Shown here one piece after another: positions 19,670 to 30,294 of a stretch of DNA of 58,560 nt (position 1 is the first letter of the stretch; each line of letters begins with the position of its first letter). A model generated the notes under the pieces. The model had not been told where the DNA came from, ran no database searches, and saw only the letters and a program-made list of their open reading frames with translations. The position numbers and the translations under genes are program-made. Source of the DNA: Saprospiraceae bacterium (GTDB taxonomy: Bacteria > Bacteroidota > Bacteroidia > Chitinophagales > Saprospiraceae). The stretch lies in the NCBI GenBank assembly GCA_015490715.1, contig WFXH01000063.1, positions 1 through 58,560 on the forward strand, given 5' to 3'.

Positions 19670-22225
19670 ATGAGGCTACAAAACTTTTCAAACGAAGTCC
19701 ATCAGATCATCAACAAGAGCCGAGAATGGGCCATCCATACCGAGAGCCCAGAGCTCTATGTAGAGCATCTCATCCTGGGAATCCTCTATGTGGAAGACAA
19801 CATCGCTCGCTCCGTATTGATGAACTTCGTCGATCTCGACGAACTGGAAGATCGCGTCATCGAGCAAATACAGCTGCGCAATAAGACTAATCGCAAGCGA
19901 AGAAAAGAGCTCGACGATAGCGATGAAATCACCCTCAATAACGATACGTACCGCGTGTTGATGATGAGCCACTTGGAAAACAAACTCCAGCAGCGCAACG
20001 AGATCCACTCCGATGTATTGCTCCTCACCATCTTGCGCAACAAGGACCTGCCCATCACCAAATTGCTCAACTCCTTCGACATCACATACGAAAACTTCAA
20101 GAACATCTTGCACTACGTCTTGCAAGATCAGGAGTACGATGTCTACGACGAAGAGGTCGACCCCATAGAGATGAGCTATGAGCACCCCTCCGAGGAAGGG
20201 TCCGAGTCTTCTTCACATGGCCGAAGAGATCCCAAAAAGAAATCAGACACCCCCACATTGGACAACTACGGGCGCGATATCACCCAACTTGCCGCAGAAG
20301 GGCGCTTGGATCCTATCATCGGCCGTGAAAAGGAAATCGAACGCGTGTGCCAAATCCTCAGCCGCAGAAAGAAAAACAACCCCGTACTCATCGGCGAGCC
20401 CGGCGTGGGTAAGACTGCCATCGTCGAGGGTCTGGCCTTGCGCATCGTCGAAAAAAAGGTCTCCCGAGCCCTCTTCAACAAACGCATCGTCATGCTCGAC
20501 ATGGCCGCACTGGTGGCCGGTACCAAGTATCGCGGCCAGTTTGAAGAGCGTATGAAGGCCATCATGAACGAACTCGAAAACACGCGCGACATCATCCTCT
20601 TTATCGACGAAATCCACACCATTGTCGGCGCGGGGGGTGCCACCGGATCACTCGACGCCTCCAACATCTTCAAACCCGCCTTGGCACGGGGCGACCTCCA
20701 GTGCATCGGTGCCTCCACCTTAGACGAATACCGCCAATACATCGAAAAAGACGGCGCCCTCGAACGCCGCTTCCAAAAAGTCATCGTCGACCCCGCTACC
20801 CCCGAAGAAACACTCAACATCCTGAAAAATATCGTCGGCCGCTACGAAGACTACCACAACGTGCGCTACTCCGAAGAAGCCATTAAAGCATGCGTCCATC
20901 TCAGCGACCGCTACATCACCGACCGATACCTGCCCGACAAAGCCATCGACGTACTCGACGAAGTCGGCGCACGCGTCCATCTCAAGAATATCAAAGTACC
21001 CAAATCCATCGAAGATCTCGAACGCGAAATCGAACGCGTCCACGAGCTGAAGGATAAAATGGTACGCGCCCAGAAATTCGAACAGGCAGCGGCCTATCGC
21101 GATAAGGAAAACGAACTCAAAAAACAACTCGAAATCGCCCGCAAGCGCTGGGAAGAAGAAGTCAAATCCATACGCTACCCCGTCACCGAAGAAGACGTCG
21201 CCGAAGTCGTCTCCATGATCACGGGCATACCTCTGCGCAAAATCGCCCAGTCCGAGAGCAAAAAGCTCGTCCACATGGCCGAAGACCTGCGCAAAGAAGT
21301 CATCGGCCAAGACGAAGCCATCGCCAAAATCGTGCGGGCAATTCAACGCAACCGCGTCGGCCTCAAAGATCCCAAGCGGCCCATAGGCTCCTTCATCTTC
21401 TTAGGACCCACCGGCGTCGGCAAAACCGAATTGGCCAAAGCTCTCGCCCGATACCTCTTCAACACCGAAGAAGCCCTCATACGCATCGACATGAGCGAAT
21501 ACATGGAGAAGTTTTCCGTCACACGCCTCATCGGCGCTCCTCCAGGCTATGTCGGCTATGAAGAAGGCGGCCAACTCACCGAAAAAGTGCGACGACGACC
21601 CTATAGCGTCATCCTCCTCGACGAAATCGAAAAAGCACACCCAGAAGTGTACAACATACTTCTCCAAGTACTCGACGAAGGCCAACTCACCGACGGCACT
21701 GGCCGACGCATCGACTTTAAAAATACCATCATCATCATGACCTCCAACATCGGCGTGCGCGAACTCGAGAGTTTCGGCCAAGGTGTCGGATTCGCCACCC
21801 GATCCAAAAAAGCCGACACCGACAAACACGCCAAAGCCACCATCGAAAAAGCCCTCAAAAAGACCTTCACCCCAGAATTCCTCAACCGCATCGACGATAT
21901 CATCATCTTCAATAGCCTCACCCAAGAACACATCTTCAAAATCATCGACCTTGCCCTCGAAAAACTCATCCAGCGTCTCAAAAACATGAACTACTCCCTC
22001 GTCGTCGACGACAAAGCCAAAGAATTTATCGCCAAAAAAGGCTACGACCCCAAATACGGCGCCCGACACCTACACCGCGCCATCCAAAAATACATCGAAG
22101 ACCCACTGGCAGAGTATATCCTCAAAAACAACCCCAAAGAAGGTACAGAATTTGTTGCTACCTTTGACAGCGAAAAAAATGCAGTGCAAATCACCACAAG
22201 CAAAGAAGCAACAACCACAACCTGA
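19670..22225 (+). CDS. clpC: ClpC-type AAA+ unfoldase, ATP-binding subunit of Clp protease
   Basis: The 851-residue hexameric unfoldase feeds proteins to ClpP. Domains in order are the Clp N repeats (1-150), AAA-1 with Walker A GEPGVGKT (about 242-249), and a UVR/M segment (about 455-495, ERVHELKDKMVRAQKFEQAAAYRDKE, given in overlapping parts). AAA-2 follows with GPTGVGKT (about 579-586), then the ClpB D2-small domain. The UVR segment and short middle region mark it as ClpC rather than ClpB. infC follows 36 nt downstream in the same frame without a convincing promoter, suggesting read-through into the translation operon. No ClpP gene is in the window. Confidence 0.95.
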   Translation: MRLQNFSNEVHQIINKSREWAIHTESPELYVEHLILGILYVEDNIARSVLMNFVDLDELEDRVIEQIQLRNKTNRKRRKELDDSDEITLNNDTYRVLMMSHLENKLQQRNEIHSDVLLLTILRNKDLPITKLLNSFDITYENFKNILHYVLQDQEYDVYDEEVDPIEMSYEHPSEEGSESSSHGRRDPKKKSDTPTLDNYGRDITQLAAEGRLDPIIGREKEIERVCQILSRRKKNNPVLIGEPGVGKTAIVEGLALRIVEKKVSRALFNKRIVMLDMAALVAGTKYRGQFEERMKAIMNELENTRDIILFIDEIHTIVGAGGATGSLDASNIFKPALARGDLQCIGASTLDEYRQYIEKDGALERRFQKVIVDPATPEETLNILKNIVGRYEDYHNVRYSEEAIKACVHLSDRYITDRYLPDKAIDVLDEVGARVHLKNIKVPKSIEDLEREIERVHELKDKMVRAQKFEQAAAYRDKENELKKQLEIARKRWEEEVKSIRYPVTEEDVAEVVSMITGIPLRKIAQSESKKLVHMAEDLRKEVIGQDEAIAKIVRAIQRNRVGLKDPKRPIGSFIFLGPTGVGKTELAKALARYLFNTEEALIRIDMSEYMEKFSVTRLIGAPPGYVGYEEGGQLTEKVRRRPYSVILLDEIEKAHPEVYNILLQVLDEGQLTDGTGRRIDFKNTIIIMTSNIGVRELESFGQGVGFATRSKKADTDKHAKATIEKALKKTFTPEFLNRIDDIIIFNSLTQEHIFKIIDLALEKLIQRLKNMNYSLVVDDKAKEFIAKKGYDPKYGARHLHRAIQKYIEDPLAEYILKNNPKEGTEFVATFDSEKNAVQITTSKEATTTT

Positions 22226-23583: not shown

Positions 23584-24585
23584 ATGGCAATGGACAACTG
23601 GATACGGTCCCTCCCCAAAGTGGATCTCCACGTGCACCTCGAAGGTACCATCGAGCCCGAAACGCTCCTCTACCTCGCCGAAAAAAACAAAGTCGTCCTC
23701 CCCTGGACGACCGTCGAAGCCGTCCAGCAAGCCTACGCCTTTCAAGACCTGGCAGACTTTTTACAGATCTATCACCAATGCACCCAAGTGCTGCGAAACG
23801 CTGAAGATTTCTACTACATCACCCTCCAATACATCCGGCGCTCTGCCGCCGAAAACACCTTCCACAGCGACGTCTTCATCGATCCCCAAACCCATCGAGA
23901 CAAGGGCATCCACCTCGAAGCCATGATGGACGGCATCACCGCTGCCCTCCGCGAAGGAGCCCGCCAATACGATTATTCCATGGGTTTTATCCTCTGCTTT
24001 TTACGCCACCGCCCGCAAAGAGAAGCGCTCGAAATCCTCCACAGCTTAGGCCCTACCCGAGCTCACTTCTCTGCCATAGGCCTCGCTGCCAAAGAACTCG
24101 GCTATCCGCCCCATCTCTTTATTGATGTGTATAAAACGGCACACGCCATGGGACTGTACTGCACGGCCCATGCTGGGGAAGAGGGTCCCGCATCCTACGT
24201 ACGCTCTGCGCTCTTCGACCTCAAAGTCCACCGTATCGACCACGGCAACGCCATCGTCGACGACCCCACATTGATCGATTACGTGCGCTCGCAATCCATA
24301 CCCCTGACAATGTGCCCCCTCTCTAACCGCGCCCTCCACATCGTCGATGATCTATCCCAACACCCCGCTACCGCTCTGCTCAATGACGGCGTGTGCGTGA
24401 CGATCAACTCCGATGATCCCGCCTTCTTCGGAGGCTATATGACGGAAAATCTCTCGGCCATGGTCGAACACGCTCAGTGGTCAAAGAATGAAATCGCAAA
24501 AGTGCTCCACCATGCCATCGACCACGCACTGATGCCCGACCACCGCAAGCAATCCCTGCGCCATCGCTTAACCCAAGCCCTATAA
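23584..24585 (+). CDS. adenine deaminase of the adenosine-deaminase family (Aah1-like subgroup)
   Basis: This zinc hydrolase has 333 residues. Metal ligands are HVHLEGT (His16, His18), AHAGEEGP and the late NSDDPAFFGGY. The VHRIDHGNA segment and TMCPLSN are also present. Several subgroup markers point to adenine rather than adenosine as substrate: the DPQTHRDKGI segment, CFLRH, the GEEGP extension and FFGGY. It would turn adenine into hypoxanthine for purine salvage. Adenosine deaminase is the alternative. It stands alone, with a hairpin just after its stop. Confidence 0.85.
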   Translation: MAMDNWIRSLPKVDLHVHLEGTIEPETLLYLAEKNKVVLPWTTVEAVQQAYAFQDLADFLQIYHQCTQVLRNAEDFYYITLQYIRRSAAENTFHSDVFIDPQTHRDKGIHLEAMMDGITAALREGARQYDYSMGFILCFLRHRPQREALEILHSLGPTRAHFSAIGLAAKELGYPPHLFIDVYKTAHAMGLYCTAHAGEEGPASYVRSALFDLKVHRIDHGNAIVDDPTLIDYVRSQSIPLTMCPLSNRALHIVDDLSQHPATALLNDGVCVTINSDDPAFFGGYMTENLSAMVEHAQWSKNEIAKVLHHAIDHALMPDHRKQSLRHRLTQAL

Positions 24586-24587
24586 AA

Positions 24588-24626
24588 TACGAAAGCGAAA
24601 TAACTGGGCAGTTATTTCGCTTCGTA
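24588..24626 (+). terminator. long hairpin after the adenine deaminase gene
   Basis: TACGA-A-AGCGAAATAACT pairs with AGTTATTTCGCT-TCGTA around a GGGC loop: 17 paired positions with one bulged A. No T-run follows, so it may act as a 3'-end stabiliser or factor-assisted terminator. Confidence 0.6.
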
Positions 24627-24689
24627 AAGTTGGGACAAAACAAAACCTAAAACATTACTATGAGAGTGACTCTTTGATGTCGGATTTCG

Positions 24690-24697
24690 TATCTTTG
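24690..24697 (+). promoter_or_regulatory. -7 box (TATCTTTG) ahead of the structured RNA candidate
   Basis: TATCTTTG matches TAnnTTTG; a start a few bases downstream would begin at the base of the compound hairpin at 24700. Confidence 0.55.
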
Positions 24698-24699
24698 CC

Positions 24700-24905
24700 G
24701 TTCGGAAATCCTGCGAGGAACGGCAGAGTACTGATGAGGCTACACATTTTCGACACTCTGCACGCATTCCTCGCAGCCCGAACCATTTTACAAGCCAAAT
24801 TTTGAACCGCCTCGGTTCGCTGTACCGAATACTTACTTTTAAGTATTCATTTGCAAAGTTCCCCCTATCCGCATTTCAAAAAATCAGGGTATTCCCTGAT
24901 TTTTT
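24700..24905 (+). ncRNA. candidate structured non-coding RNA, about 200 nt
   Basis: From the -7 box to a terminator the segment folds into successive stems. The first is a compound hairpin: GTTCGG/CCGAAC (24700-24705 with 24778-24783), CTGCGAGGAA/TTCCTCGCAG (24711-24720 with 24767-24776) and GCAGAGT/ACTCTGC (24723-24729 with 24755-24761), with a 25-nt loop. Then come GAACCG/CGGTTC (24804-24818) and GAATACTT/AAGTATTC (24827-24848). Last is a perfect 12-bp stem, AAAAAATCAGGG/CCCTGATTTTTT (24878-24905). Overall size is near that of 6S RNA, but I see no decisive family motif. It could also be the leader of the downstream gene. Confidence 0.5.
24878..24905. terminator. bidirectional intrinsic terminator
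   Basis: A perfect 12-bp stem with a TATT loop has A6 on one side and T6 on the other, the classic symmetric Rho-independent terminator. It would end the RNA candidate on the plus strand. Confidence 0.75.
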
Positions 24906-24990
24906 CACCTTTTAGTTGTTTTATGCAACTATCTGCTCGCCTTACGGCTACCTCTGCTCCTTCCACGGCGGTCTGCCGCGTATCAATCGC

Positions 24991-24998
24991 TATTTTTG
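24991..24998 (+). promoter_or_regulatory. -7 box (TATTTTTG) for the isoprenylcysteine methyltransferase-like gene
   Basis: TATTTTTG lies 20 nt before ATG 25019 and supports that start over the longer open frame beginning at 24851. Confidence 0.55.
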
Positions 24999-25018
24999 CC
25001 GCAACATTTAATCATCAC

Positions 25019-25741
25019 ATGGATCTCATCTCTCGGTGCATACATACCGGCCAATGGCTCTTCCGCCACCGCAGTTACTTGCCGCTGCTGATCATCGTGC
25101 CTGGGCTCTTCATCTACACGTATACCGATTATACCGTTCTGCCAATAAAGGAGAGCACATACGAGTGGTTTTGTGTGGCCGTGGGTTTGCTCGGCCTCGG
25201 CATACGCGTGTGGACGATTGGCTATGCCCCTGCCGGGACCTCTGGGCGCAACACCCAAGAGCAAATAGCCGATCGCCTCAACACGGAAGGGCCCTATTCT
25301 GTGGTGCGCCACCCGCTATACCTCGGCAACTTCTTCATGTGGATCGCCGTAGCACTCTGGATTGGTCACCTGTACTTTCTCATCATCACTGTACTGGTCT
25401 TTTGGTTGTACTACGAACGCATCATGGTTGCCGAAGAGGCCTTTCTTCGTCAGCGCTTCGGCCAACAATTTTATCAATGGGCAAAAAGCACGCCTGCATT
25501 CTTCCCGTGTTCCCTCAAGATCAAGAGTAGCCCCTCTACCTTCCAATGGCGCAAAGTCATCTATCAGGAGAGCAACGGACTTGCGGCACTGTTCCTCTTA
25601 TTCGCCCTACTGGATGGGATCGGTGCACAAATTCAGCACCCCTACCATCCGCGTCCCAATAATGTCCTCTACCTGCTCGCGGCACTGTCGTTGCTCCTTC
25701 TCATCGGCCGAAAAATCGCCTTGAAGCGTCCTCCTTCGTAA
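25019..25741 (+). CDS. isoprenylcysteine carboxyl methyltransferase (ICMT)-like membrane protein
   Basis: This 240-residue protein has several membrane helices (YLPLLIIVPGLFIYTY, FCVAVGLLGLGIRVW and others). Its core resembles the ICMT/PEMT family of membrane methyltransferases: NTEGPYSVVRHPLYLGNFFM (the RHPxY motif) followed by YYERIMVAEEAFLRQRFG. Bacterial members methylate unknown, probably lipid or small-molecule, substrates with SAM. Two more hydrophobic helices close the protein. I place the start at ATG 25019 because of the -7 box 20 nt upstream and because the preceding open frame crosses a strong terminator. Confidence 0.8.
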   Translation: MDLISRCIHTGQWLFRHRSYLPLLIIVPGLFIYTYTDYTVLPIKESTYEWFCVAVGLLGLGIRVWTIGYAPAGTSGRNTQEQIADRLNTEGPYSVVRHPLYLGNFFMWIAVALWIGHLYFLIITVLVFWLYYERIMVAEEAFLRQRFGQQFYQWAKSTPAFFPCSLKIKSSPSTFQWRKVIYQESNGLAALFLLFALLDGIGAQIQHPYHPRPNNVLYLLAALSLLLLIGRKIALKRPPS

Positions 25742-27795: not shown

Positions 27796-28113
27796 ATGAC
27801 AGCAAGAGAATTCTTTGAATCCCTACCCGACAAGATCAACGCCGATGCAGTCAAAGATATGCAGACGGTCTTTCACTTCGACCTTTCGGGTGAGGGAGGA
27901 GGACAATACACCCTTCGCCTCCAGGATGGTCAGTTGAGCATCGAAGAGGGCCTCCAAGGCGAAGCCAAATGCGTGGTACGCAGTTCCGCAGAAGACTTTA
28001 TGGCCCTGGTCACAGGCAAACTCAATCCGATGATGGCCATGATGACGGGCAAGGTAAAGATCAGCAACCCGGCTGAAATGGTCAAATACGCCAAACTCTT
28101 CGGCCTGATGTAG
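27796..28113 (+). CDS. SCP2 sterol-binding domain protein
   Basis: This single-domain, 105-residue protein has the SCP2 fold. An N-terminal helix (REFFESLPDKIN) is followed by beta strands (VFHFDLSGEGGGQYTLRL). The C-terminal signature is CVVRSSAEDFMALVTGKLNP, with the MMTGKVKI strand and NPAEMVKYAKLF helix. It forms a hydrophobic pocket that binds lipids or acyl chains; the ligand is unknown. It lies 24 nt after the peptide-binding lipoprotein gene on the same strand, convergent with selD. Confidence 0.88.
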   Translation: MTAREFFESLPDKINADAVKDMQTVFHFDLSGEGGGQYTLRLQDGQLSIEEGLQGEAKCVVRSSAEDFMALVTGKLNPMMAMMTGKVKISNPAEMVKYAKLFGLM

Positions 28114-28130: not shown

Positions 28131-29174
28131 TCATCCCTCTATGCGAATACGCGGTCGGCCTTCGACGTGGGCCTCGATGGTACCGATGTGCCAGACCTGT
28201 TGGCCGTGTTGGGTGTTGACCTGGAGAAATTCGTCAACGCCTTCAGGGGCTACGGTGACGAGCAGTCCGCCGCTCGTCTGCGGATCGCAAAGCAGGCGCA
28301 CCTGCATCTCTGTCAAGGGGGGCAGGTATTGGCGGTAGCTGTCGTAATTTTTAGCTGTGTTGCCGGGCTGGATGCCGGCTTCGAGGTAAGGATCAATGCC
28401 CTCTATGCGCGGTATCTTCTGCCAGTAGATCTGGGCAGCCACTTCCGAATGGCGGCATATTTCGAGGAGGTGGCCAACCAGGCCAAAGCCCGTCACGTCG
28501 GTCATGGCATGGACACTTGTAAGAGCCCCATAGTGGCGGCCCATGGCATTGAGCGTAGTCATTAACTCCACTACTTTATGCACGATATCGGGCGTCGCGC
28601 GCTTGCGCTTGATGGCCGTAGTCAGCACGCCAATGCCCAGCGGTTTGGTCAAGAAAATGTGGTCGCCCACCTGGGCCCCGCTATTGGTCTTGACGTGACT
28701 GCGCGGGGCTCTGCCGGTCACAGCCAATCCGTAGAAGGGTTCCGGTGCGTCGATGCTGTGCCCTCCTGCCAGGGGAATGCCCGCCTTCCGACAACTCCAC
28801 AGCGCACCCCTGATGACTTCCGAAGCCAGCTCGATGGGCAGCTTCTTTATCGGCCATCCGAGTATCGAGATCGCCATCATCGGGGTACCGCCCATGGCAT
28901 AGATATCGCTCAAGGCATTCGCCGCTGCAATACGCCCAAAGTCGTAAGGATCGTCTACAATGGGCATAAAAAAATCAGTCGTGGATATGACGACTTCGCG
29001 CTCATCCCACCGCATGACGGCAGCATCATCGCCCGTATGTGTGCCGACGAGCAGCTGACCATTGGTCGGCGCAAAACCCACACTTTGAAGCATCTGCTCT
29101 AAGGAGGCAGGTGCAATCTTGCATCCACATCCCGCACCATGGCTGTACTCCGTCAGACGTATTTTATCGGTCAT
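28131..29174 (-). CDS. selD: selenide, water dikinase (selenophosphate synthetase), Cys form
   Basis: SelD makes selenophosphate from selenide and ATP, the selenium donor for tRNA and selenoproteins. The 347-residue product has the N-terminal active-site segment YSHGAGCGCKI, with Cys16 in place of selenocysteine and Lys19. The metal/ATP-binding segments are GDDAAVM, TTDFF, NALSDIYAMGGTP and AGGHSID, and the C-terminal DPQTSGGL loop closes it. It lies 37 nt downstream of selU on the same strand. Use of selenium for 2-selenouridine in tRNA is the obvious job; no selA or selB is visible here. Confidence 0.95.
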   Translation of the reverse strand: MTDKIRLTEYSHGAGCGCKIAPASLEQMLQSVGFAPTNGQLLVGTHTGDDAAVMRWDEREVVISTTDFFMPIVDDPYDFGRIAAANALSDIYAMGGTPMMAISILGWPIKKLPIELASEVIRGALWSCRKAGIPLAGGHSIDAPEPFYGLAVTGRAPRSHVKTNSGAQVGDHIFLTKPLGIGVLTTAIKRKRATPDIVHKVVELMTTLNAMGRHYGALTSVHAMTDVTGFGLVGHLLEICRHSEVAAQIYWQKIPRIEGIDPYLEAGIQPGNTAKNYDSYRQYLPPLTEMQVRLLCDPQTSGGLLVTVAPEGVDEFLQVNTQHGQQVWHIGTIEAHVEGRPRIRIEG

Positions 29175-29193
29175 GTTTGGCTGTTTTTTTTGC

Positions 29194-29205
29194 GTATGAA
29201 ATGGT
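29194..29205 (+). repeat. GTATRAAATNGT 12-mer between selU and selD
   Basis: GTATGAAATGGT, an exact match, lies on the strand opposite the two genes, in their 37-nt spacer. Confidence 0.75.
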
Positions 29206-29211
29206 GGTTCT

Positions 29212-30294
29212 TCATTCGATCGGCGCCCTGTGGTTTTGCTGTTTCACCTCTAACCGCTGACCAAGCTCCATCTGTTTTATACTTTTTAACTGCTGGGCAA
29301 TTTCAATCATTGGCTCCTCATTGACGTTGTGAAGGATCCGGATGGGATTAGGAGCATGGTCGCGCGCGTAGGTATACGTCTTATCGTAGTAATGGAGGGC
29401 AATTTGGGCAGCGCGGTGGTAATCGTCCTGGTGGAGGGCATCTAAAGCCTGACGATAGCGCAGGTCGCCGAGGCGCTTTCGTATCTTATCAAAGGCTGCG
29501 ATGAGTTCTTCTTTTGGAGCTCGGGCGTATTCGGCCACCAACGTCTCAACACGCCGATGCAGAGGTACCTCGAGGTCGATGCGAGGGGCATTCTGCATCT
29601 TTTGCCAAAGGATTTCGGGTATGGGCACTTTTCCGATTTGACGGCTCTCGGCTTCTACCCATATGGGTTTGGAGAGGTCCATTTTGGCGAGATGGTAGTA
29701 GATTTCATTAAAAAAGTGTTCGCCGCTGGGTTGGTCGGGGAGGAGGAGATGGCCAAAGGCCGAGCCGCGGTGGTGTGCCAAAGCTTCCAAATCGAGTACC
29801 TGCTCGCCGAGTTGTTGGAGATGATGAAGTATCTGGGTCTTACCGCTCCCTGTTTTGCCGCCCAGCACGATGAGCTGGAGCGGCATGTCTTCAAGGCGTC
29901 GGGTCATGGCGCGCCGAATAGCCTTGTACCCGCCTTCTACGACGACGACCGGCAAAGAGAGGAGCGAGAGCAACCACGCCATGCTCCGACTACGCATTCC
30001 GCCACGCCAACAATACATCCAGAGCGTCCGACAATCCTTCCACTCCAGTGCACGTTCTAACCAGTCCCTCATCTTAGGAGCGACGATCGACACGCCTTCG
30101 ATGAGGGCAGCTTCGCGGCCGCGTTGTTTGTAGAGTATTCCGACGATTTTGCGCTCTTCATCACTGAAGAGGGGGAAAGATACTGCAGTGGGTATATGCC
30201 CATGGCGGTATTCGGAAGGGCTGCGCACATCGAGGATCCGCTCGGTCTGCGCGGGATAGCGATCGAGAAAATCGTCCGCGCTGCAGTATCTCAT
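29212..30294 (-). CDS. selU: tRNA 2-selenouridine synthase
   Basis: The enzyme (also mnmH/ybbB) replaces sulfur of 2-thiouridine at tRNA position 34 with selenium, via geranylation. The 360-residue product has a rhodanese domain (1-125) with the catalytic Cys95 in MYCWRGGMRS. A P-loop domain follows, with Walker A GGKTGSGKT (145-153) and the conserved LDLEALAHHRGSAFG. It is immediately upstream of selD, the donor enzyme, which supports the function. The N-terminus RYCSADDFLDRYPAQTERILDVRSP in overlapping parts fits the family, so the start is secure. Confidence 0.93.
   Translation of the reverse strand: MRYCSADDFLDRYPAQTERILDVRSPSEYRHGHIPTAVSFPLFSDEERKIVGILYKQRGREAALIEGVSIVAPKMRDWLERALEWKDCRTLWMYCWRGGMRSRSMAWLLSLLSLPVVVVEGGYKAIRRAMTRRLEDMPLQLIVLGGKTGSGKTQILHHLQQLGEQVLDLEALAHHRGSAFGHLLLPDQPSGEHFFNEIYYHLAKMDLSKPIWVEAESRQIGKVPIPEILWQKMQNAPRIDLEVPLHRRVETLVAEYARAPKEELIAAFDKIRKRLGDLRYRQALDALHQDDYHRAAQIALHYYDKTYTYARDHAPNPIRILHNVNEEPMIEIAQQLKSIKQMELGQRLEVKQQNHRAPIE

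Follow-up and report, generated by a model that had tools for sequence, protein, structure and literature searches.

A candidate small RNA in a Saprospiraceae genome: an intergenic locus, structured and apparently non-coding, that has a promoter box and a terminator of its own

The window analysed here is a 58,560-nucleotide stretch of contig WFXH01000063.1 (C63) from a Saprospiraceae genome of 2.45 Mb that is 98.6% complete (G000). The intergenic region under study lies between an adenosine deaminase gene (23584-24585; PF00962) and a methyltransferase gene on the plus strand (ATG 25019 to 25741; PF04191/PF04140), and a second species of the same genus (G001) carries this locus at 91% identity. 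Just 3' of the deaminase stop codon is a plus-strand hairpin (24586-24630; fold z -7.27) that is unchanged in G001, followed by an unstructured upstream promoter region (24627-24689; fold z -0.18) that is near-identical there. A perfect inverted repeat, AGAGT-G-ACTCT, lies in this region of the window (24663-24673), upstream of the -7 box; it is unchanged in G001 and is possibly an operator site, or else a chance occurrence. The -7 box itself, TATCTTTG (24690-24697, plus strand), matches the consensus TAnnTTTG and is also unchanged.

Downstream of the box, a compound hairpin (24700-24783) is composed of three nested stems of 6, 9 and 7 bp with internal loops and a 25-nt apical loop, and its helices carry no substitution in G001. 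Stem 1 pairs GTTCGG (24700-24705) with CCGAAC (24778-24783), stem 2 pairs CTGCGAGGA (24711-24719) with TCCTCGCAG (24768-24776), and stem 3 pairs GCAGAGT (24723-24729) with ACTCTGC (24755-24761). Within the apical loop, the unpaired segment GATGAGGCTACACA (24733-24746) is a candidate pairing region; it is identical in G001, unlike nearby positions of the loop, which vary. A second candidate pairing region is the mostly unpaired linker at 24784-24801, likewise unchanged. Two small hairpins follow, one of 6 bp (24804-24818; mean pair probability 0.963) and one of 9 bp (24827-24848; 0.974), before an intrinsic terminator, A6-TCAGGG-TATT-CCCTGA-T6 (24878-24905), with 12 bp including the A/T pairs and no change in G001. 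A separate -7 box, TATTTTTG (24991-24998), lies outside this block, is conserved in G001 and is probably the box of the methyltransferase gene. The intervening spacer, otherwise fast-diverging, contains a 6-bp stem, TAGTTG/CAACTA (24913-24931 of the window), which is kept in G001 with a changed loop. The promoter box, nested stems, two further hairpins and A6/T6 terminator named in a preliminary description of this DNA were thus all recovered.

A TAnnTTTG box is a weak signal when taken alone (33 occurrences in the window against 23.8 expected by chance). TATCTTTG fits the Bacteroidota sigma-A consensus and ends 2 nt before the main hairpin. In Flavobacterium psychrophilum the box sits at -12 to -5 (PMC9723704). 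By that spacing, transcription would start near 24702 and yield an RNA of about 204 nt. The -33 TTTG is absent at the expected place, the nearest one ending 13 nt before the TATCTTTG box, which counts against a small RNA transcribed from here. At the other end, the 24878-24905 terminator was missing from the plus-strand list of a simple terminator scan, an omission probably due to the T run lying inside the stem. This terminator is symmetric and could act both ways, leaving the strand unfixed.

The plus-strand fold of the 211 nt from 24698 to 24908 is far more stable than expected (-69.8 kcal/mol vs -39.6 for shuffled sequences, sd 4.2; z -7.22), and none of 200 shuffles was as stable. The plus strand of the whole window was scanned in 584 segments of 200 nt, taken every 100 nt and each compared with 25 shuffles. 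The segment from 24801, which contains the terminator and the two small hairpins without the 84-nt hairpin, ranked first (z -6.9, the next being -4.4), and the one from 24701, which contains the main hairpin with the terminator cut, ranked ninth (z -3.3). For an RNA starting at 24702, stems 2 and 3, the 6-bp and 9-bp hairpins and the terminator were predicted with probabilities of 0.956-0.996, the terminator itself at 0.956 and with no competing fold in 24702-24905. Of the six pairs of stem 1, four would remain, with a mean probability as low as 0.41, which again counts against the small RNA.

Comparison of the two species showed 15 differences in the 320 positions of 24586-24905, with a single one (at 24683) in 24586-24689. 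The spacer at 24906-25018 differs at 22 of 113 positions and by one inserted base, and the neighbouring genes also differ more than the block does (deaminase, 99 of 999 positions; methyltransferase, 80 of 720). All 14 substitutions in 24698-24905 fall outside the 98 helix nucleotides. When adjoining substitutions were merged into nine events, random placement avoided the helices in a fraction of 0.00165 of trials. Loops that change while helices stay are what a structured RNA would predict, on either strand, and are distinct from covariation. Two observations count against the small RNA here: with 10 differences in 80 positions, 24704-24783 taken whole is not more conserved than coding DNA, its loops changing while its helices stay; and an altered internal-loop pair beside stem 3 is not compensated in register, the predicted G001 pairing sliding to new partners. 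The preliminary description had proposed compensatory changes as a check; G001 holds the one homologue found, its helices are unchanged, and no covariation can be read from two sequences.

The locus has a narrow distribution. Among 60 genomes, blastn retrieved it only in G000 itself and G001, and a covariance model built from these two sequences (R1) found it in the same two of 298 family genomes only. R1 also gave weak matches in seven more genomes and at a second place in G001 (16-19.3 bits, E 0.18-0.91). With laxer filters, a search of 35 genomes (G000, G001 and 33 near relatives) again retrieved the locus in these two only, with weak matches in two genomes (16.4 and 18.3 bits) and at the same second place in G001. 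Ten weak R1 places were rescored, and the best three, read as alignments, lack the conserved loop and look like chance matches. The only relative of the adenosine deaminase found in the named collection, a protein 92% identical to it, is encoded on JALWKB010000067.1, from a Saprospiraceae MAG. The nearest genus found, by both deaminase and IF-3, is that of G065, where another reading frame begins a few bases past the deaminase gene (locus L035). Neither L035 nor the locus of rplT in that genome (L065) gave an R1 match at E 1. By reading only, L065:2920-3190 contains a TACTTTTG box after rplT, then a long spacer and a queA-like gene.

A repeat family or mobile element was considered and ruled out: the locus occurs once in G000, its other blastn matches being its own inverted repeats, and searches of phage and plasmid collections gave no match to it at E 1e-5. 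The preliminary description had named a known repeat family as grounds for discarding a new small RNA; matches to known repeat or RNA families were looked for and none was found. Its proposed search against Rfam returned only chance matches (E 1.1-6.5), far below the cut-off.

The same description had likened the locus to 6S RNA, and the search for 6S RNAs in the family led to a result of its own. RF00013 reached its cut-off in none of 40 genomes and in 4 of 14 controls; for RF01685 (6S-Flavo) the figures were none of 60 genomes and none of 14 controls. These genome-wide Rfam searches are weak proof of absence. RF01685 also gave 22 sub-threshold places. Of these, 13 loci were examined and three that share motifs were picked by eye (38, 35 and 25.9 bits with RF01685), the other examined loci lacking these motifs. 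Of 39 Saprospiraceae genomes, a covariance model built from these three (R2) matched 21, the three source genomes among them, with E values no higher than 2.4e-6; two of the 39 had weak matches only, and 16 had none at E 5. The 21-sequence alignment covaries: 92.2% of its cells are paired, both sides have changed in 18 of 24 pairs, no shuffle out of 500 scored as high on any one of the five measures, and slid controls had far lower values. The alignment was fitted to the structure, though, which favours this result. A long closing stem is predicted in the folds of L008, L012 and L096. A model built from all 21 RNAs (R3) gave strong matches in 6 of 29 genomes (three used in the model and three new) and weak ones in four. 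The 6S-like loci are L007:1501-1649(-), L008:1501-1635(-), L012:1501-1634(+), L094-L111 and L116-L118. A covarying 6S-like RNA is therefore present in many Saprospiraceae, below the Rfam 6S-Flavo cut-off where tested. R3 had no match at E 10 in G000 or G001, nor in G065 and G165, both from the nearest genus; in each of these four, 113 of the first-look candidates were scored. The branch with G000 and G001 may have lost 6S RNA, or its 6S RNA may be too diverged to see. With a 6S-like RNA present in many Saprospiraceae and not found in several others, the loss or replacement of 6S in Bacteroidota becomes testable.

Could the structured block itself be a diverged 6S RNA? Its length is similar, and no other 6S was found in G000 or G001 (113 of 177 and 113 of 191 first-look R3 candidates scored, respectively). 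We nevertheless consider this highly improbable. No Rfam 6S family (RF00013, RF01685) matches 24500-25100 at E 10, and with filters off this segment scores at most 6.4 bits with R2 and 5 bits with R3, whereas members of the Saprospiraceae 6S-like family score 33 to 146 bits with R2. 6S RNA is defined by a closing stem that joins both ends around a large central bubble. The candidate has in common with 6S-Flavo RNA (RF01685) and the Saprospiraceae 6S-like RNA its length class and a long imperfect stem, but differs from them in matching no model and in having neither an end-closing stem nor a large central bubble: the 5' hairpin of 24702-24905 closes on itself after 84 nt, and only about 2.6 pairs are expected between the first 80 and the last 74 nt. 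The proposed likeness to 6S RNA was thus not borne out by any Rfam or custom model or by the architecture, and the candidate is not a member of the Saprospiraceae 6S-like family. We give very little credence to the conjecture that, in a branch of Saprospiraceae where the 6S-like RNA was not found, a genus-specific structured RNA assumed a housekeeping function such as the control of RNA polymerase. A short coding gene is just as hard to reconcile with the data. A 42-aa plus-strand frame over the main hairpin (from ATG 24677, or 23 aa from an internal ATG) is open in both species, as are two further frames, one of 37 aa on the plus strand (24802-24915) and one of 46 aa on the minus strand (24658-24798). 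Yet the nine changed codons of the 42-aa frame are all non-synonymous, whereas the deaminase gene has 58 synonymous and 28 non-synonymous ones; the corresponding values are 1 and 3 for 24802-24915 and 0 and 8 for 24658-24798. A 51-aa minus-strand frame (24612-24767) shows 4 of each, but its ATG is lost in G001. The 42-aa frame has no Pfam match, and its start would be upstream of the promoter box. The short frames were rejected on these codon changes, making a coding explanation extremely unlikely; the earlier view that no open reading frame explains the locus holds, in that no frame shows protein-type conservation between the two genomes compared.

The remaining alternatives concern which transcript the structure belongs to. 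The adenosine deaminase mRNA may include the block as its 3' UTR, possibly with processing into a stable fragment. The block is conserved from directly after the deaminase stop codon, and the post-stop hairpin (24588-24626) has AAGTTGGG as its plus-strand tail, without a T run; since this hairpin lacks a plus-strand T tail, transcription may run on to 24905. Against this stands the -7 box, perfect and conserved, whose position 2 nt ahead of the main hairpin is that expected for an independent start, and we find a 3' UTR rather unlikely. The T-rich tail of the post-stop hairpin is on the minus strand, the only strand on which the simple scan calls a terminator there (24623-24592), and a minus-strand RNA could run from about 24850 down to 24592 and end at it. 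Such an RNA would account for the high conservation of 24586-24689. Moreover, fold stability on the minus strand comes close to that of the plus strand for the block as a whole (z -5.75) and slightly exceeds it for the 84-nt hairpin taken alone (z -6.06 against -5.15), and a one-mismatch box, GAACTTTG, lies on the minus strand at 24861. However, the minus strand has no perfect TAnnTTTG box from the one at 22085 to the next at 27852, while a perfect one on the plus strand abuts the hairpin, and the 211 nt as a whole have the better z on the plus strand, so that a minus-strand RNA appears unlikely. A leader or attenuator acting in cis on the methyltransferase gene would be on the right strand, with a terminator between the structure and the gene. 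The preliminary description had judged a leader RNA less likely, and we consider it very unlikely: the gene has its own conserved TATTTTTG box beyond a diverged spacer, and the terminator is predicted with high probability and without a competing fold.

We favour, by a little better than an even chance, an independent non-coding small RNA of about 204 nt encoded in the intergenic region on the plus strand (24702-24905), whose transcription, strand and ends we infer from the box and the terminator. Transcription would proceed from the TATCTTTG box, starting near 24702, to the A6/T6 terminator at 24905. The hairpins would protect both ends of the RNA and display its unpaired conserved segments, namely GAUGAGGCUACACA in the apical loop and the linker at 24784-24801. 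These segments might base-pair with target mRNAs without Hfq, a role that we put forward tentatively. No Hfq match was detected in G000 or G001 (none in the six genomes searched; the control was positive in 5 of 14). Bacteroides is said to be without obvious Hfq and ProQ (PMC7366714), and the Hfq result for G000 and G001 resembles this.

An intergenic RNA with a start site and an intrinsic terminator is a usual form in Bacteroidota (PMC7366714, PMC9723704). Nine of 11 tested candidates of Bacteroides thetaiotaomicron were confirmed by Northern blot, eight of them with a start site and an intrinsic terminator (PMC7366714). For the new independent transcripts reported in F. psychrophilum, the median length is 176 bp, and coding potential is typically lacking (PMC9723704). 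The candidate resembles intergenic small RNAs of Bacteroidota, such as GibS of B. thetaiotaomicron and the independent Rfp transcripts of F. psychrophilum, in its intergenic location, TAnnTTTG-type promoter box, intrinsic terminator, shortness and narrow distribution, a likeness of features (PMC7366714, PMC9723704). In contrast to its strong 5' compound hairpin, several B. thetaiotaomicron small RNAs are described as rather unstructured (PMC7366714). The preliminary reading is supported in that the intergenic locus is structured, appears non-coding, has a promoter box and a terminator of its own and is separate from the methyltransferase gene, and the small RNA stands as a well-supported candidate, not yet proven as a transcript. 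If transcribed, it would be a strongly folded small RNA seen in one uncultured genus, among genomes in which no Hfq was found (0 of 6).

Bacteroidales-1 RNA (RF01693) is also a non-coding RNA candidate of Bacteroidota, and the locus has no Rfam match to it at E 10. We take it to lie preferentially near rplT, which by reading is presumably the second gene upstream of the locus. Elsewhere in the window, on the minus strand (28131-30294), a selenophosphate-synthase-like gene adjoins a rhodanese/selenouridine-synthase-like gene, a pair that, from reading of the translations only, suggests tRNA selenouridine modification.
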